62,915 nt of DNA, from positions 13,417 through 76,331 of the forward strand of contig JAMPAC010000004.1 in assembly GCA_023667395.1 (NCBI GenBank), given 5' to 3'. Made by a program: the position numbers and the translations under genes. Source of the DNA: Blautia sp. Its GTDB lineage: Bacteria; Bacillota; Clostridia; Lachnospirales; Lachnospiraceae. Every line of letters starts with the position of its first letter. The stretch's first letter is position 1. This document shows, piece after piece, positions 42,875 to 48,074 of the stretch. Under the pieces are notes generated by a model that was given only the letters and a program-made list of their open reading frames with translations, was not told the origin of the DNA and did not search any database.

Positions 42875-43795
42875 ATGAGCGACTTGCAGACACACATCAA
42901 AAACTATCTGGAACATTGTCGACACCAGAAACGGTTGGATGACAAAACATTGAAAGCATATCGGATCGACCTGACGCAGTTCTCCGCCTGCTTCCCATCC
43001 GCCGACATCACGGCAATCTCCCCTGACAAACTGGAACAATACATAGCGACTTTGCATCAGAAATATAAGCCTAAAACAGCAAAAAGAAAAATCGCTTCCT
43101 TAAAAGCATTCTTCCACTACCTTGAATACAAAGACCTGATCGACCGCAATCCTTTCAACAAGATCCATACCCGGTTCCGGGAACCTGTCATTTTACCCAA
43201 GACCATCCCTCTCCATACTGTAGAAGCGCTCCTGTCCACGATCTATCAGCAGCAGAAGAACGCAAGGACAGTCTATCAGCAGCGTAACGCCCTGAGAGAC
43301 GCTGCAGTGGTTGAAATGCTTTTCGCCACCGGAATGAGGATCTCGGAACTGTGTTCGCTGGAGGAGCAGAGCGTCAACTTATATGACAAAAACATACTGA
43401 TCTATGGAAAAGGCTCCAAGGAACGGAAAATACAGATTGGCAATGATGACGTCATAAAGATCCTGGAGGAATATAAAAACAGTTTTCGATCCGAGATCAA
43501 AAACTGCGGTCACTTTTTTGCAAACCAGAATAGCAGTCCTCTGTCCGATCAGTCCGTCCGCAGAATGATAAATAAGTACACCCGGCTCGCCGCCATTGAG
43601 CTGCACATCACACCTCACATGTTCCGCCATACTTTTGCCACCAGCCTGCTGGAGGCGGATGTGGATATCCGATACATCCAGGAGATGCTGGGGCACAGTT
43701 CCATCAATATTACGGAGATCTATACCCATGTGGCAATGTCCAAGCAGCGGGATATCCTGACGACAAAGCATCCACGGAAGGATTTCCGGATATAG
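42875..43795 (+). CDS. Tyrosine recombinase (Xer/phage-integrase family)
   Basis: A 306-residue recombinase with an N-terminal SAM-like core-binding domain (about 1-90) and a catalytic domain with all expected residues: Arg155 in TGMRISEL, Lys182 in GKGSKERK, His248 and Arg251 in HMFRHTFA, His274 in LGHSSI and Tyr283 in EIYTHV. AAGGAGAGC precedes the ATG. It ends about 70 bp from a recombinase-core-like site in the left 53-bp inverted repeat. I infer that it inverts the adjacent cassette. A general Xer role is unlikely given the location and length, but not excluded. Confidence 0.9.
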   Translation: MSDLQTHIKNYLEHCRHQKRLDDKTLKAYRIDLTQFSACFPSADITAISPDKLEQYIATLHQKYKPKTAKRKIASLKAFFHYLEYKDLIDRNPFNKIHTRFREPVILPKTIPLHTVEALLSTIYQQQKNARTVYQQRNALRDAAVVEMLFATGMRISELCSLEEQSVNLYDKNILIYGKGSKERKIQIGNDDVIKILEEYKNSFRSEIKNCGHFFANQNSSPLSDQSVRRMINKYTRLAAIELHITPHMFRHTFATSLLEADVDIRYIQEMLGHSSINITEIYTHVAMSKQRDILTTKHPRKDFRI

Positions 43796-43866: not shown

Positions 43867-43897
43867 ATCAATGGATAATTAAAAGTTATCCATTGAT
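43867..43897 (+). other. Left recombinase core-like site
   Basis: ATCAATGGATAA (43867-43878), spacer TTAAAAG (43879-43885), TTATCCATTGAT (43886-43897). Twelve-base perfectly inverted arms around a 7-base spacer have the geometry of tyrosine-recombinase core sites. The inner arm and spacer are part of the 53-bp inverted repeat. Confidence 0.6.
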
Positions 43898-43926
43898 TGG
43901 GATGGATAGCGATGGAATGGATTACT
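43874..43926 (+). repeat. Left 53-bp terminal inverted repeat (IR-L)
   Basis: Perfect reverse complement of 47672-47724. It begins GATAATTAAAAGTTATCC and contains several GATGGA motifs (GGGATGGATAGCGATGGAAT). The identity stops sharply on both sides. It contains no start codon used by the cassette genes. Confidence 0.95.
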
Positions 43927-43967
43927 GATGGTTGTCTGACGATGGAAAATGGAAAGGTGTAAAAATC

Positions 43968-45407
43968 ATGCAGAAAATAGGGGAAGTTTTTTCTAAACAG
44001 GAAATAGCATCAGCCGCTGATTTTTTAAAGACGCTTGTCCCCTTGGAACCCTTGAGAGATGCAGAAAGTTCATTTGAAGGAATTAATCAGAATTATGATA
44101 AAACCTTTGACGGCTCTCTAATGCGGCAGGGAGCATATGACAATTGTAGATTTACAAATGTGACTTTTGAGGGAACAGCAGGAAATAATTCTGTCTTTAA
44201 AAAATCTAAATTCACTGACTGTAAATTTATCAAGGCAAATTTTATGTATTCTGATTTTTCTGATAGCAGCTTAAAAATCAAAGCATATTCAAGCAGCTAT
44301 GATTTTTCTGACTTTACAGGAACCACTATTTTTGACAGCAAAATGGATGGGGTTTCTTTCAAGGAATGCTATTTTCGGAACAGCACCTTGGAAAATGCAA
44401 AAATAAGCAAGTGTGTCTTTTCAAGTTCAACTTTTAACAACTGCTTTTTTAAAGATGTGGATTTTTCTGCAGCTACATTGGATTTTTCTGAGATTACAGA
44501 CACAAAATTTCAAACTGTGATTTTCCCGTTTTTCGGAATATTGAACCTAGTAAATGGTTTTAAACAAATAATCAGTCAGAAAGCCGTTTCATTTAAAATA
44601 GTGAGTTCTAATTATACAGTAGAAAGTGAGCAGTATATTGAGGATATTAGATTACTAAAACCAGTTTTTTATTATGAAAATAATTTTTTAGCGCTTGCAA
44701 ATATCTATGCCTATGATGGAGAAATAAGAAACGCATATGATACAATATTAAATGGTTTGGCATATGCGTGTCAAAAAAAGAATTTCAGTCTGATGCGGCA
44801 TCTTTGCAGATTTGCTTCCGTGAATAATATTTTTAATCTAAAACAGCTAAAATCATTTTATAGCTTTTTGGAAAATAACGTTAATGTTCAACGGTTACAA
44901 TATGTAGAATATCACAACTATCTTAACGAACTTTCTATTGCGAAAAGTTTGCTTATTGACTGTCCTTTTAATAGGGACATTATGGAAATAAACTTAAAAA
45001 CAAATTTTAATTACAGTGATGCGGGTAAACTAACAGAAACAATGAATATTATAAACAGCACCTTGAAGCAATATGCACCTGATTCAAATAACCACATAAC
45101 CGTCAGACATAATTCTCCAATAGACCTTACAATTATTGTATCAGATAATGTATATACGTTAATTTTGGTATTTATGGCACTTGCGCTGGTGTTTGATAAA
45201 ACATGTAGCGGAATAGAAAAAATACAAAATATCCTTAAGAACCATCAGGAAATCAAGCTTCAAAAAATAGAAATTGAAAAAATGAAAGCAGAACAGGAAA
45301 AGCAACAGAAAATTCACCATATACTGCTTCCCGATGATTTTGAAAAAATTTCTTATATTGTTAAACCAATCCATAATTTGCCATCAGAACTTCGAAACTA
45401 TAAATGA
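43968..45407 (+). CDS. Pentapeptide-repeat protein with C-terminal membrane anchor
   Basis: A 479-residue protein. Residues about 45-180 are pentapeptide-repeat-like turns (CRFTNVTFEG, CKFIKANFMYSDFSDSSL, CVFSSSTFNNCFFKDVDFS). Residues about 190-370 are helical and TPR-like. A single hydrophobic helix near 400-416 (VYTLILVFMALALVFD) is followed by a Lys/Glu-rich coiled tail. ATG 43968 is preferred; a TTG at 43932 in frame lacks a ribosome site. No promoter is visible inside the cassette, so it may be read from outside (for example from the recombinase gene). Possible roles are immunity or a scaffold for the peptide system (inference). Confidence 0.7.
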   Translation: MQKIGEVFSKQEIASAADFLKTLVPLEPLRDAESSFEGINQNYDKTFDGSLMRQGAYDNCRFTNVTFEGTAGNNSVFKKSKFTDCKFIKANFMYSDFSDSSLKIKAYSSSYDFSDFTGTTIFDSKMDGVSFKECYFRNSTLENAKISKCVFSSSTFNNCFFKDVDFSAATLDFSEITDTKFQTVIFPFFGILNLVNGFKQIISQKAVSFKIVSSNYTVESEQYIEDIRLLKPVFYYENNFLALANIYAYDGEIRNAYDTILNGLAYACQKKNFSLMRHLCRFASVNNIFNLKQLKSFYSFLENNVNVQRLQYVEYHNYLNELSIAKSLLIDCPFNRDIMEINLKTNFNYSDAGKLTETMNIINSTLKQYAPDSNNHITVRHNSPIDLTIIVSDNVYTLILVFMALALVFDKTCSGIEKIQNILKNHQEIKLQKIEIEKMKAEQEKQQKIHHILLPDDFEKISYIVKPIHNLPSELRNYK

Positions 45408-45413
45408 TATGAC

Positions 45414-45450
45414 GGGCACAGTAAAAGCAATGAAAATGCATACTGTGCCC
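45414..45450. terminator. Hairpin between the converging cassette genes
   Basis: GGGCACAGTA (45414-45423) and TACTGTGCCC (45441-45450) pair perfectly over 10 bp with a 17-base loop. No T-run follows on either strand, so termination is uncertain, but the position between convergent genes suits a bidirectional stop. Confidence 0.5.
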
Positions 45451-45456
45451 AAGTAC

Positions 45457-45624
45457 TTAGCGACCACCGCCGCCTCCGCCACCACCGCCGCCTCCGCCTC
45501 CGCCACCACCGCCGGACATTGCAGTTGAGTAGTCATCATCATATGTTTCCTCCATATGATATTTGGCAGTTAATTCTGCAGCATCTTCGTCAAAGATTGC
45601 GAGAATGCCATGTTCTAAAGCCAT
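45457..45624 (-). CDS. RiPP-precursor-like peptide with a C-terminal polyglycine tail
   Basis: A 55-residue peptide. The leader-like part runs MALEHGILAIFDEDAAELT, then AKYHMEETYDDDYSTAM. The tail is Ser37, seventeen consecutive Gly (38-54) and Arg55. It starts one base after the stop of the radical SAM gene, and its ribosome site AAGGAGGAAG lies in the last codons of that gene, so translation is coupled. The acidic helical leader, short length and position next to a radical SAM enzyme with a PqqD-like domain fit a ribosomally made, post-translationally modified peptide. No Cys or Lys occurs in the tail, so glycine backbone or the preceding Ser would be the target (inference). Confidence 0.75.
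   Translation of the reverse strand: MALEHGILAIFDEDAAELTAKYHMEETYDDDYSTAMSGGGGGGGGGGGGGGGGGR
45460..45513 (-). repeat. 18-bp-based repeats encoding the polyglycine tail
   Basis: The minus strand repeats GGCGGTGGTGGCGGAGGC, nearly three copies with one two-codon insertion, giving seventeen Gly codons in GGC/GGT/GGA mixture. Slippage or unequal recombination in whole codons would change tail length without breaking the frame. Confidence 0.8.
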
Positions 45625-45625
45625 A

Positions 45626-47656
45626 TCACACTTCCTCCTTCTTTTTGAATTCTGTTAAATATCCTCGTTGATACAATTTTAAAAATAAAACATTTAAATC
45701 TTCAGGTACATAAACATTTGGATCATGCAAAGTAAGATAATCCATGGCATCTGATATGGTATGTGCCGTTTTAAAAAAATCAAAAATAAATATTAGATGT
45801 TTATTTCCAATCATATAATGATGTGTTTGCCAATTGTAGATAATATATATGTTTCGCTTTGTGTCAAAACCATATACTATCGTATTTGGAATGAATACTT
45901 CTGTCTGCGAATCTATTGCGGAGGCGTTAATTGCAGAGATAGCGCTATTTTCGTGGGCTTTCCATCTCAGAGTATATCTTGCGGTTTCACTAAGACGATA
46001 AAATATATGCGGTCTTACAAAAGCATCCGTTGGCATCCACGGATATAACATTTCACGCATATATTGATCTCGTTCCATAAATAGCTGTTTTTCTAAGTCG
46101 CTTCCTCTGTCCCATTGCAAAATATTGCCCAGAAAGTCCTGTAATGGACAGGGATAAAAAACCCTTTGTATTTCATACTTGTCCAAGCAGCGGAATATAT
46201 GGCTGCTAATATCCAAATTAAATACATTGATATTAAATGAAACAAGAGGATACTTTTCGCATAGATAGCGCAGATAATCGTAAGTCTTTTTGCGCTCGTA
46301 AGAGGTTTCGCCAGGGAATCCGATAATCATTGGAAAATGGATAGAGATCCCTGCGTCCGAATATGCAGAACATATTTCCTCCACTACTTCAAACGAAAAA
46401 TCCTCATTGAACTTATTCATTGCTTTAAGGATATCAAGGGATGCCGATTCTAACCCCAATCTTAATTCTTTTAACCCTGATCTTTGAAGACGTTCAATCA
46501 AGCTTTTATCTAAAAGCAGCTTCTCTACGCGACATCGCACCTGCCATATAATATCAATATTATTTTGTATCAAAAAGTCTGCTATATATTTTAATTTTTG
46601 TGGATGAATTGCTTCATCAATAAACCATACATATTTTATTTCTTTGCATAGGTATGCTTTAAGATAATTTAGCGAAATATCAAGTGCATCCGGTGTTGAT
46701 TCATTATTATTCAAGTGATATTTTTTGTTAATTCCACAAAATGTACATTTATTCCAATAGCATATATTATAAGGCTGTAAATGTACATTAATCAGTTTGC
46801 TTGTAGAATATGGAACTTCAAAGACTGGCGCATAATCCTTTTCTTTCGCTGCATAAGGAGTTGCATATATTTTATCTTTATTTCTATATATTAAGTTTGA
46901 AACTGTCGAAAGTGCTCTCCCATTTTTCAGTGCACTAAGCAACTGTTTTTCTGTTTCATCAAAGTATTCTAAAATAATTGAATCAACCATTTTAAACAAA
47001 TATTTGTTTTGAGTCAAATAGGATTCCAACTTATTTAATGAGTAATACTCCGATGAGTGGCGCGAAATACATATATGCACATCCGGAAATTCCTTTTTTA
47101 TTAAGAGACATATCGCCATATTATAGAAAGTCGGCGCCCCGTCTATAAAAATAATGGGTGCCAAAGCTTTCCTGACCTGAGGCAGGACATATTGCCTAAT
47201 AAAATTCAGATATGGATTTTTTTGATCATCCAAGCAATCAAAATATATTTGAGAAGCAGAAAAATTGTTTATTTCAAAACCGTTTTGAATCGTAAGCCGA
47301 TGAGGATTGAAAGCATACTCCGAATATATTTTGCAAACAATACTGAATGTTTCCACATAGCAAAAAAAATCTTTTGCTGTTATATCTGGATTACAAATAA
47401 AATTTTTGGCAATCTCAACTTGTTTTATGAAAGTTTCAACATCAGATATGACCGCAATGTATTTCGGTGATGATGGAACTATTTTATCAATAACATGTTT
47501 TATATTTGCCGCATCAAAAATAAGAGTCCAGAAAAAATCTGTAGCATCCAATTTGTTCCCATCCAAATTTAAAGCAGTGGTTGACAAACCGTTTGGAGTT
47601 GGATTATAAAATTCATGAAACAATCCGCTCACAGATGAAATTCGTATGCAGTTCAT
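45626..47656 (-). CDS. Radical SAM peptide maturase-like protein with N-terminal B12-type fold and C-terminal PqqD-like domain
   Basis: A 676-residue protein. Residues about 60-280 look like the Rossmann-type domain of B12-binding radical SAM enzymes, but I see no DxHxxG motif, so cobalamin binding is doubtful. The 4Fe-4S motif is C299-x4-C304-x2-C307 (ICYWNKCTFCG), similar to RiPP-maturation radical SAM proteins. A SAM barrel follows (LRLGLESASLDILKAMNKF, MIIGFPGETSYERKK). The last 70 residues (AHTISDAMDYL, VLFLKLYQRGYLTEF) resemble a PqqD-type precursor-recognition domain. It probably modifies the 55-residue peptide encoded one base downstream. AT-rich; starts 15 bp inside the right inverted repeat, and GAGGAAG precedes the ATG. 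Confidence 0.78.
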   Translation of the reverse strand: MNCIRISSVSGLFHEFYNPTPNGLSTTALNLDGNKLDATDFFWTLIFDAANIKHVIDKIVPSSPKYIAVISDVETFIKQVEIAKNFICNPDITAKDFFCYVETFSIVCKIYSEYAFNPHRLTIQNGFEINNFSASQIYFDCLDDQKNPYLNFIRQYVLPQVRKALAPIIFIDGAPTFYNMAICLLIKKEFPDVHICISRHSSEYYSLNKLESYLTQNKYLFKMVDSIILEYFDETEKQLLSALKNGRALSTVSNLIYRNKDKIYATPYAAKEKDYAPVFEVPYSTSKLINVHLQPYNICYWNKCTFCGINKKYHLNNNESTPDALDISLNYLKAYLCKEIKYVWFIDEAIHPQKLKYIADFLIQNNIDIIWQVRCRVEKLLLDKSLIERLQRSGLKELRLGLESASLDILKAMNKFNEDFSFEVVEEICSAYSDAGISIHFPMIIGFPGETSYERKKTYDYLRYLCEKYPLVSFNINVFNLDISSHIFRCLDKYEIQRVFYPCPLQDFLGNILQWDRGSDLEKQLFMERDQYMREMLYPWMPTDAFVRPHIFYRLSETARYTLRWKAHENSAISAINASAIDSQTEVFIPNTIVYGFDTKRNIYIIYNWQTHHYMIGNKHLIFIFDFFKTAHTISDAMDYLTLHDPNVYVPEDLNVLFLKLYQRGYLTEFKKKEEV

Positions 47657-47671
47657 AATACTTCCTCACAA

Positions 47672-47724
47672 AGTAATCCATTCCATCGCTATCCATCCCA
47701 ATCAATGGATAACTTTTAATTATC
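47672..47724 (-). repeat. Right 53-bp terminal inverted repeat (IR-R)
   Basis: Perfect reverse complement of 43874-43926, 15 bp upstream of the radical SAM start codon. Identity ends abruptly at GATAATT at the outer side. Confidence 0.95.
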
Positions 47725-47731: not shown

Positions 47732-48074
47732 TGCCAGCCATTTTTTCATCATGCCGTACCATCATTGCATTATAATGCCACTGGTTGTCTAAATTAGTGT
47801 TTTTTAATATTATATCACATTCTAAATTAAATGTCACTCCATTTAATATCTTTTTGCAGTCATTTTTAAACACGCATCCACCTGCCTTAATGCGATATTC
47901 TGTCATTCCGCAAAATCAGCTTCTGCAAAAACACAGATATTCACATACAAACCCCCTGTAAATTTCCACTTTCATATGGTACAATGACCTTATTCATGCT
48001 ATAATAAATACGGATTCCAGTACGACAGTACCAATGATCCCTTACGAAAAATATCTGGCGGGAGAAACAAAATT
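47725..48074. other. AT-rich gap between the cassette and dcd
   Basis: No ORF. GCATTATAATGC (47767-47778) is a palindrome containing a TATAAT in either direction; on the minus strand it lies about 110 bases before the radical SAM gene, outside the cassette, and could be a fixed promoter reading in, though no good -35 is seen. TGTAAA-17-TACAAT (47957-47985) or TATAAT (48000-48005) may drive dcd. Confidence 0.4.

Follow-up and report, generated by a model that had tools for sequence, protein, structure and literature searches.

The 62,915-nucleotide window analyzed here, from a contig of Blautia sp. (JAMPAC010000004.1), contains what we interpret, with a probability of roughly 0.62, as a two-state DNA-inversion cassette in which an arm for a candidate glycine-rich ribosomally synthesized and post-translationally modified peptide (RiPP) is set against an arm for a pentapeptide-repeat protein (Table 1). 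Perfect 53-bp inverted repeats enclose the pentapeptide gene on the plus strand and the genes for a small peptide and a radical S-adenosylmethionine (SAM) enzyme on the minus strand, and the gene for a tyrosine recombinase lies outside the left repeat. An initial annotation of this DNA had described the coupling of the enzyme and peptide genes, which stands, but it missed the repeats, the recombinase, and the pentapeptide gene that frame the pair. Viewing the pair as one arm of an apparent two-arm invertible cassette changes the biological question.

Table 1. Features of the putative invertible cassette in the window, and sister cassettes that share a related arm
Feature	Position	Strand	Basis or remark
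Tyrosine recombinase, Xer-like, 306 aa, presumed invertase	42875..43795	+	Pfam Phage_integrase 8.4e-42
Left inverted repeat, site GATAA-TTAAAAG-TTATC	43874..43926	+	53 nt, 100% complementary to 47672-47724
Pentapeptide-repeat protein, left (Xer-proximal) arm	start about 43932-43968, end 45407	+	Pfam Pentapeptide_4 1.7e-12
Hairpin between convergent arms, probable bidirectional terminator	45414..45450	.	-21.2 kcal/mol, z -5.0
Glycine-rich precursor-like peptide, 55 aa, S-G17-R tail	45457..45624	-	Open reading frame and comparison with homologues
Radical SAM enzyme, 676 aa, C-x4-C-x2-C, right arm	45626..47656	-	Pfam Radical_SAM 3.7e-10
Right inverted repeat	47672..47724	-	Complementary to left repeat
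Promoter-like site GTGACA-N17-TATAAT with TG	47809..47837	-	Outside right repeat, toward enzyme; 11/12 consensus matches
Cassettes with related ATP-grasp arm: L077, L086, L087, L099, L101, L126, L127, L129			Pfam in four, BLAST in the rest

When the downstream stretch was shuffled 20 times, the longest inverted repeat to arise by chance was 13 nt, compared with the 53 bp observed, and both repeats carry a recombination-type core of the form GATAA-N7-TTATC. The adjacent recombinase has the R, K, H-x-x-R, H, and Y motifs, all of which are common to a homologue in another genome of the family (G445), and it scores under the XerC and XerD equivalog cut-offs. The predicted hairpin between the arms likewise recurs, with inter-arm hairpins in all four homologous cassettes (z -3.8 to -5.3).

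Homologues of the radical SAM enzyme were sought in several sequence collections. Besides the window, the best match among 61 genomes (its own and those of relatives) had an E value of 1.2e-10, and 397 family genomes searched at E<=1e-15 yielded one full-length homologue (G445, 31% identical) and one partial homologue (G362). Among 392 genomes of the order (E<=1e-25), seven matches were found, namely the window, G492 (2.2e-151), which belongs to another family of the same order, and five weaker ones (99-111 bits), and 398 genomes of the phylum gave three matches, window included. The genome_contigs collection contained 160 pattern-matching stretches, of which COE1 (77%) and one Lachnospiraceae contig passed confirmation. 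Two scans of viral contigs revealed no relative, and a plasmid tblastn search returned seven partial matches, all at less than 30% identity. The four full-length members (window, COE1, G445, and G492) are 29-77% identical.

A small glycine-rich open reading frame (ORF) lies downstream of the enzyme gene at all four of these loci. In three of them the two genes share a strand and are separated by 1 nt (window), 22 nt (G445), or 6 nt (G492). In COE1, a transposase gene (L035:9999-10961, minus strand) has been inserted between the enzyme and peptide genes; about 15 bp are repeated at its ends, and the whole region spans L035:9999-11120. This insertion may have uncoupled the COE1 peptide from its enzyme. 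None of the three distant radical SAM homologues that were scanned (L117, L118, and L119) has a glycine-rich small ORF nearby. The co-occurrence that the initial annotation proposed as a check is thus borne out for full-length homologues, with three genomes besides that of the window, and does not extend to the three distant ones scanned.

All four full-length loci have inverted repeats around the trio of enzyme, peptide, and pentapeptide genes, and these repeats are perfect within each cassette but vary in sequence from one genome to another. In G445, the trio recurs with a recombinase (58% identical) and a 32-bp perfect repeat, and the contig ends exactly at the last base of the right repeat. 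The enzyme arm of the window is the one farther from the recombinase (right), whereas that of G445 is the nearer one (left). Likewise, the gene pair of another cassette, L101, is inverted relative to those of L126 and L127 (46-52% identity). Opposite orientations are therefore documented between genomes and, with caveats given below, within the COE1 assembly, whose scaffold has two copies of the pentapeptide-peptide part, arranged as a perfect inverted duplication of 1978 nt on either side of a run of N. Right-flank sequence adjoins the enzyme end in one place (about 23 nt, from 7889) and the pentapeptide end in another (to 12913), and the assembly appears to represent both orientations in the sequenced culture. 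The G492 cassette (L116:7819-11634) holds the trio between 22-bp perfect repeats.

The recombinase belongs to a larger family. At least 53 matches at E<=1e-85 occur in 49 of the 397 family genomes; at most five candidates per genome were scored, so that 53 is a lower bound, and all 53 were examined. An inverted repeat of at least 17 bp holding GATAA-N7-TTATC is flanked by the recombinase in 24 cases, and its start lies between 3 bp upstream and 616 bp downstream of the point at which the recombinase match ends. The recombinase-side site is exact in 20 of these 24 and has one mismatch in L087, L097, L098, and L033. Twelve further contigs end no more than 250 bp after the recombinase, nine of which have an exact site, two a site with one mismatch, and one (L074) no site, whereas only 1 of the 53 (L124) is on a contig that starts within 250 bp before it. 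Contig ends just after the recombinase are expected where a segment exists in two orientations. The contigs that end 61-208 bp after the recombinase are L069, L072, L073, L074, L078, L084, L088, L094, L120, L121, L122, and L130.

Two convergent arms are present in all 26 cassettes mapped from ORFs of at least 150 aa, which comprise the 24 flanked by a recombinase together with COE1 and G492. The first ORF of each arm begins between 26 bp inside and 243 bp beyond the repeat. The recombinases of L126, L127, and L129 are 45-50% identical to that of the window, and that of L132 is broken (63%). In these four loci and in L130, the recombinase gene is followed by the site at a distance of about 190-340 bp.

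Because the peptide arm faces a promoter-like site outside the right repeat, we infer that the window is in a peptide-ON state. An internal promoter for the enzyme gene was judged unlikely because a mere 15 bp separates the start codon from the repeat. Promoter-like sites are not enriched in the region overall (27, compared with 22.3 in shuffles, sd 4.3). We also counted exact TATAAT motifs within 120 bp of the repeats of 21 cassettes, with expectations taken from shuffles. Inward-pointing motifs occur beyond the right repeat in 10 of the 21 (3.4 expected) and on the left side in 2 (2.3 expected); for outward motifs the numbers are 5 on the right (3.5 expected) and 1 on the left (2.4 expected). 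Such counts make plausible a fixed outside promoter, located to the right in the closer relatives. In G492, a promoter-like TATAAT lies beyond the pentapeptide end, and inward-pointing TATAAT motifs on the left are seen in L127 and in L130, whose cassette is truncated by the contig end.

The proposed mechanism is as follows. The adjacent tyrosine recombinase would exchange strands at two inverted GATAA-N7-TTATC sites, within their 7-bp spacers, and thereby invert the 3.85-kb segment between them. One orientation would place the operon for the radical SAM enzyme and the glycine-rich peptide beside the fixed promoter outside the cassette, and the opposite orientation would place the pentapeptide-repeat gene there, with the hairpin between the convergent arms serving to insulate them. 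The peptide would be a RiPP precursor, and the enzyme would modify its tail, presumably through abstraction of hydrogen from glycine alpha-carbons. Production of the peptide might thus be confined to a fraction of the cells in a population.

Several observations weigh against this interpretation. The excess of TATAAT on the right flank is gone when one mismatch is allowed (17 of 21 cassettes, compared with 15.5 expected), and the pattern had been spotted before its test. Cassettes found later (L126, L127, L129, and L132) have the motif on the right in none of four cases and on the left in one, which weakens a general rule that the promoter is on the right. Flipping itself is read from genome assemblies, and the COE1 scaffold contains a run of N and an inverted duplication that could be genuine; the right-flank sequence at the COE1 enzyme end is also short, at about 23 nt. 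No recombinase lies alongside the G492 cassette, and the nearest match in that genome (49%) is on another contig; this cassette may be served in trans or frozen. Furthermore, 17 of the 53 recombinase matches have no such repeat in the stretches searched, some of which are short; among them, L067, L089, and L102 have a site without a partner, and the 17-bp repeat of L080 does not contain the site. The repeat is the 17-bp core alone in 3 of the 24 cassettes (L085, L086, and L100). One sister cassette, L098 (G209:C1:701500-712321), carries Thoeris-like proteins in opposite arms: a ThsA protein with SIR2-STALD (1.1e-60) and a ThsB-like TIR protein (2.4e-12; the best match of that protein is PDC-S66 at 2.6e-20). 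ThsA and ThsB act together, and their placement in opposite arms sits badly with strictly exclusive expression. Finally, no transporter, export, or protease gene was seen between the repeats of the window; an export or protease gene is not universal among RiPP clusters.

The peptide was described in the initial annotation as a 55-residue product ending in Ser, 17 Gly, and Arg, encoded 1 base after the radical SAM gene with its ribosome site in the last codons of that gene, and all of this is present as claimed, the site being AAGGAGG. The peptide has 18 glycines, 17 in the tail and 1 in the leader. Codons for the tail glycines are mixed (GGC, GGT, and GGA) while the residue is constant, and the tails of the window and COE1 genes differ by six synonymous and no nonsynonymous changes. 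The leader has a dN/dS of 0.145 between these two loci, and the peptide gene is thus under purifying selection between them; the corresponding values are 0.136 for the enzyme and 0.162 for the pentapeptide gene. Codon variation and selection rule out the origin of the polyglycine as a chance product of a low-complexity stretch.

An uninterrupted polyglycine tail is found in the window (G17) and COE1 (G12) and does not hold for the diverged members, in which the glycine-rich tail is broken by S, N, Q, and T (G445) or by N, A, T, D, and S (G492). Cysteine, the core residue of sactipeptides and ranthipeptides, is absent from all four tails; the COE1 peptide has one cysteine, located before its tail. 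The core had also been said to lack lysine and tryptophan, which is true of the window and COE1 tails. Glycine alpha-carbons would most likely be the site of modification, to judge from the composition of these two tails, because they lack Cys, Lys, Trp, Tyr, and Phe. Neither the peptide nor the enzyme has a PHROGs match at E<=0.01. A search for glycine-rich ORFs (>20% Gly, 30-129 aa) in 22 further stretches from the recombinase family, including 18 complete cassettes, found none, and therefore the peptide seems tied to this type of enzyme rather than to the cassette family.

The C-x4-C-x2-C cluster previously assigned to the enzyme was confirmed at C299/C304/C307 and is found in all four full-length homologues, whose alignment reveals three additional conserved cysteines (C108, C141, and C503) that could be catalytic residues. 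A PDB sequence search (phmmer) with the enzyme found nothing at E<=0.01. Its best NCBIfam matches are radical SAM proteins of the PhpK or B12-binding type (TIGR04479 and others), led by PhpK at 3.3e-21. However, the enzyme is far below the cut-off for that model (75 vs 600 bits), and a class B (cobalamin) radical SAM methyltransferase was set aside because the D-x-H-x-x-G cobalamin motif is missing from all four full-length members. Residues 31-497 align with the distant homologue G503 (hhalign 99.5%, 4.8e-23) over a region that includes what we take to be a stretch typical of B12-binding-type proteins. G503 also has a PqqD domain (Pfam, 3.3e-7), in the same 692-aa frame and C-terminal to the part that matches the window enzyme. 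The PqqD-like recognition domain that had been proposed for the C terminus of the window enzyme itself was not confirmed: Pfam PqqD has no match at E<=10 in three enzyme C termini, and hhalign against PqqD rows (7 good rows, from 25 loci in a search of 96 genomes) gave a probability of at most 1.2%, with and without G503.

To characterize the cargo of the wider family, Pfam domains were sought in 40 proteins from 18 cassettes, a subset of the ORFs in these cassettes. One arm is often of a biosynthetic type (ATP-grasp, carbamoyltransferase, glycosyltransferase, methyltransferase, SHMT-like, or radical SAM), and the opposite arm is often of a conflict type (TIR, AAA/STAND, Mrr, TPR, or pentapeptide). 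This division is a pattern and not a rule, with exceptions such as L098 (SIR2-STALD opposite TIR) and L092 (TIR opposite radical SAM), and no Pfam match was obtained for 8 of the 40 proteins, spread over seven cassettes. Homologues of the window pentapeptide protein occur in COE1, G445, G492, L076, and L103, and in the latter two the arm opposite the homologous one includes an ATP-grasp/radical SAM fusion. Related ATP-grasp arms (D-Ala-D-Ala-ligase-like) are seen in eight cassettes, with different partners and in either orientation (Table 1).

A broader and rather doubtful extension of these findings is that Lachnospiraceae and their relatives carry a family of recombinase-driven two-state cassettes that would make each cell either a “maker” (radical SAM enzyme with glycine-rich peptide, ATP-grasp ligase, carbamoyltransferase, or glycosyltransferase) or a corresponding “effector” (pentapeptide, TIR, or STAND). 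A clone would then split into makers of a signal or toxin and responders, and the glycine-rich radical SAM peptide would be a new RiPP class under such a switch. For the window itself, a possibility that we consider unlikely is that the modified product of the peptide arm targets sister or rival cells, the pentapeptide protein confers protection against that product or mediates the response to it, and inversion divides the population accordingly. In several other cassettes, an ATP-grasp, carbamoyltransferase, or glycosyltransferase arm stands opposite a TIR/TPR, AAA/STAND, or Mrr-like arm, the facing arms of L076 and L103 fit this scheme, and PMC7897471 describes pentapeptide proteins that protect against cognate natural products, microcin B17 (via McbG) included. 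A maker that lacks its protector would harm itself, however, unless the product acts elsewhere. Moreover, the repeats of the window protein occupy only its N-terminal part (approximately residues 61-182 of 491), unlike pentapeptide gyrase protectors, which are short proteins.

We consider it equally unlikely that both arms are anti-phage genes and that inversion provides bet-hedging or is triggered by infection. The ThsA and ThsB matches of L098 and the recurrence of TIR, AAA/STAND, and Mrr domains in the cargo speak for such a role, as does a weak NCBIfam match of the window pentapeptide protein to the Hailong effector HalA (2.9e-8, 33 bits vs a cut-off of 250). Yet when 10 proteins were run through PADLOC, matches were obtained for two L098 proteins alone, and the window pentapeptide protein and enzyme were unmatched.

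Less probable again is that the peptide is a small accessory or structural protein and not a substrate of the enzyme, as might be supposed from the unconfirmed RiPP recognition element (RRE) in the enzyme and from the cassette, in which no export or protease gene was seen; a radical SAM gene accompanies that of the peptide at all four loci, however, and in three of them the two share a strand with 1-22 nt between them, which argues otherwise. Least probable is that the repeats mark the termini of a mobile element that has lost the ability to invert, with orientations that reflect independent insertions, for although flanking genes differ among the window, COE1, and G445 and the repeats are missing at the 17 recombinase matches noted above, the repeats remain perfect within a cassette despite differing between genomes, and COE1 has both types of right-flank junction.

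Lachnospiraceae are common gut commensals. If the two-state interpretation is correct, peptide production would be set by a heritable coin-flip, and a reversed cassette could make a culture score negative, such that screens for these peptides would need a locked orientation. Radical chemistry on a cysteine-free glycine tail, if true, would widen the known radical SAM repertoire. The same site and recombinase type occur with many paired gene sets, a Thoeris-like set included, and the question of why recombinases lie beside conflict genes thus becomes testable.

DNA inversion and radical SAM RiPPs are already known as kinds. A RiPP-like pair as an invertible arm opposite a pentapeptide gene, a two-arm family of this sort, or a polyglycine radical SAM peptide was not found in searches of one open-access library (titles and abstract openings, with most subscription journals outside), which is weak evidence of absence. 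As in the window, the GrrA/GrrM systems of cyanobacteria combine a glycine-rich peptide with a radical SAM maturase. A model of this type presumably exists in NCBIfam, and it is not among the NCBIfam matches of the enzyme or peptide at E<=1. Microcin B17 is also glycine-rich, but it involves azole chemistry and not a radical SAM enzyme as in the window. To our knowledge, opposite invertible arms are not known for microcin B17 and McbG. What that system shares with the window is that a modified peptide (in the window, a candidate) and a pentapeptide-repeat protein are encoded together (PMC7897471). The radical SAM alpha-carbon RiPPs (sactipeptides, epipeptides, and proteusins; PMC8326336) resemble the window in having a small precursor with a leader and tail that adjoins a radical SAM gene; the window differs by its glycine-rich tail, the lack of a recognized RRE, the C-x4-C-x2-C cluster, and the invertible setting. 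The RecV switches of Clostridioides difficile (PMC5903667) share with the window cassette inverted repeats, a tyrosine recombinase, and reversible ON/OFF heterogeneity. However, these switches flip short segments upstream of genes, whereas in the window a whole convergent two-arm cassette beside its own recombinase appears to flip.

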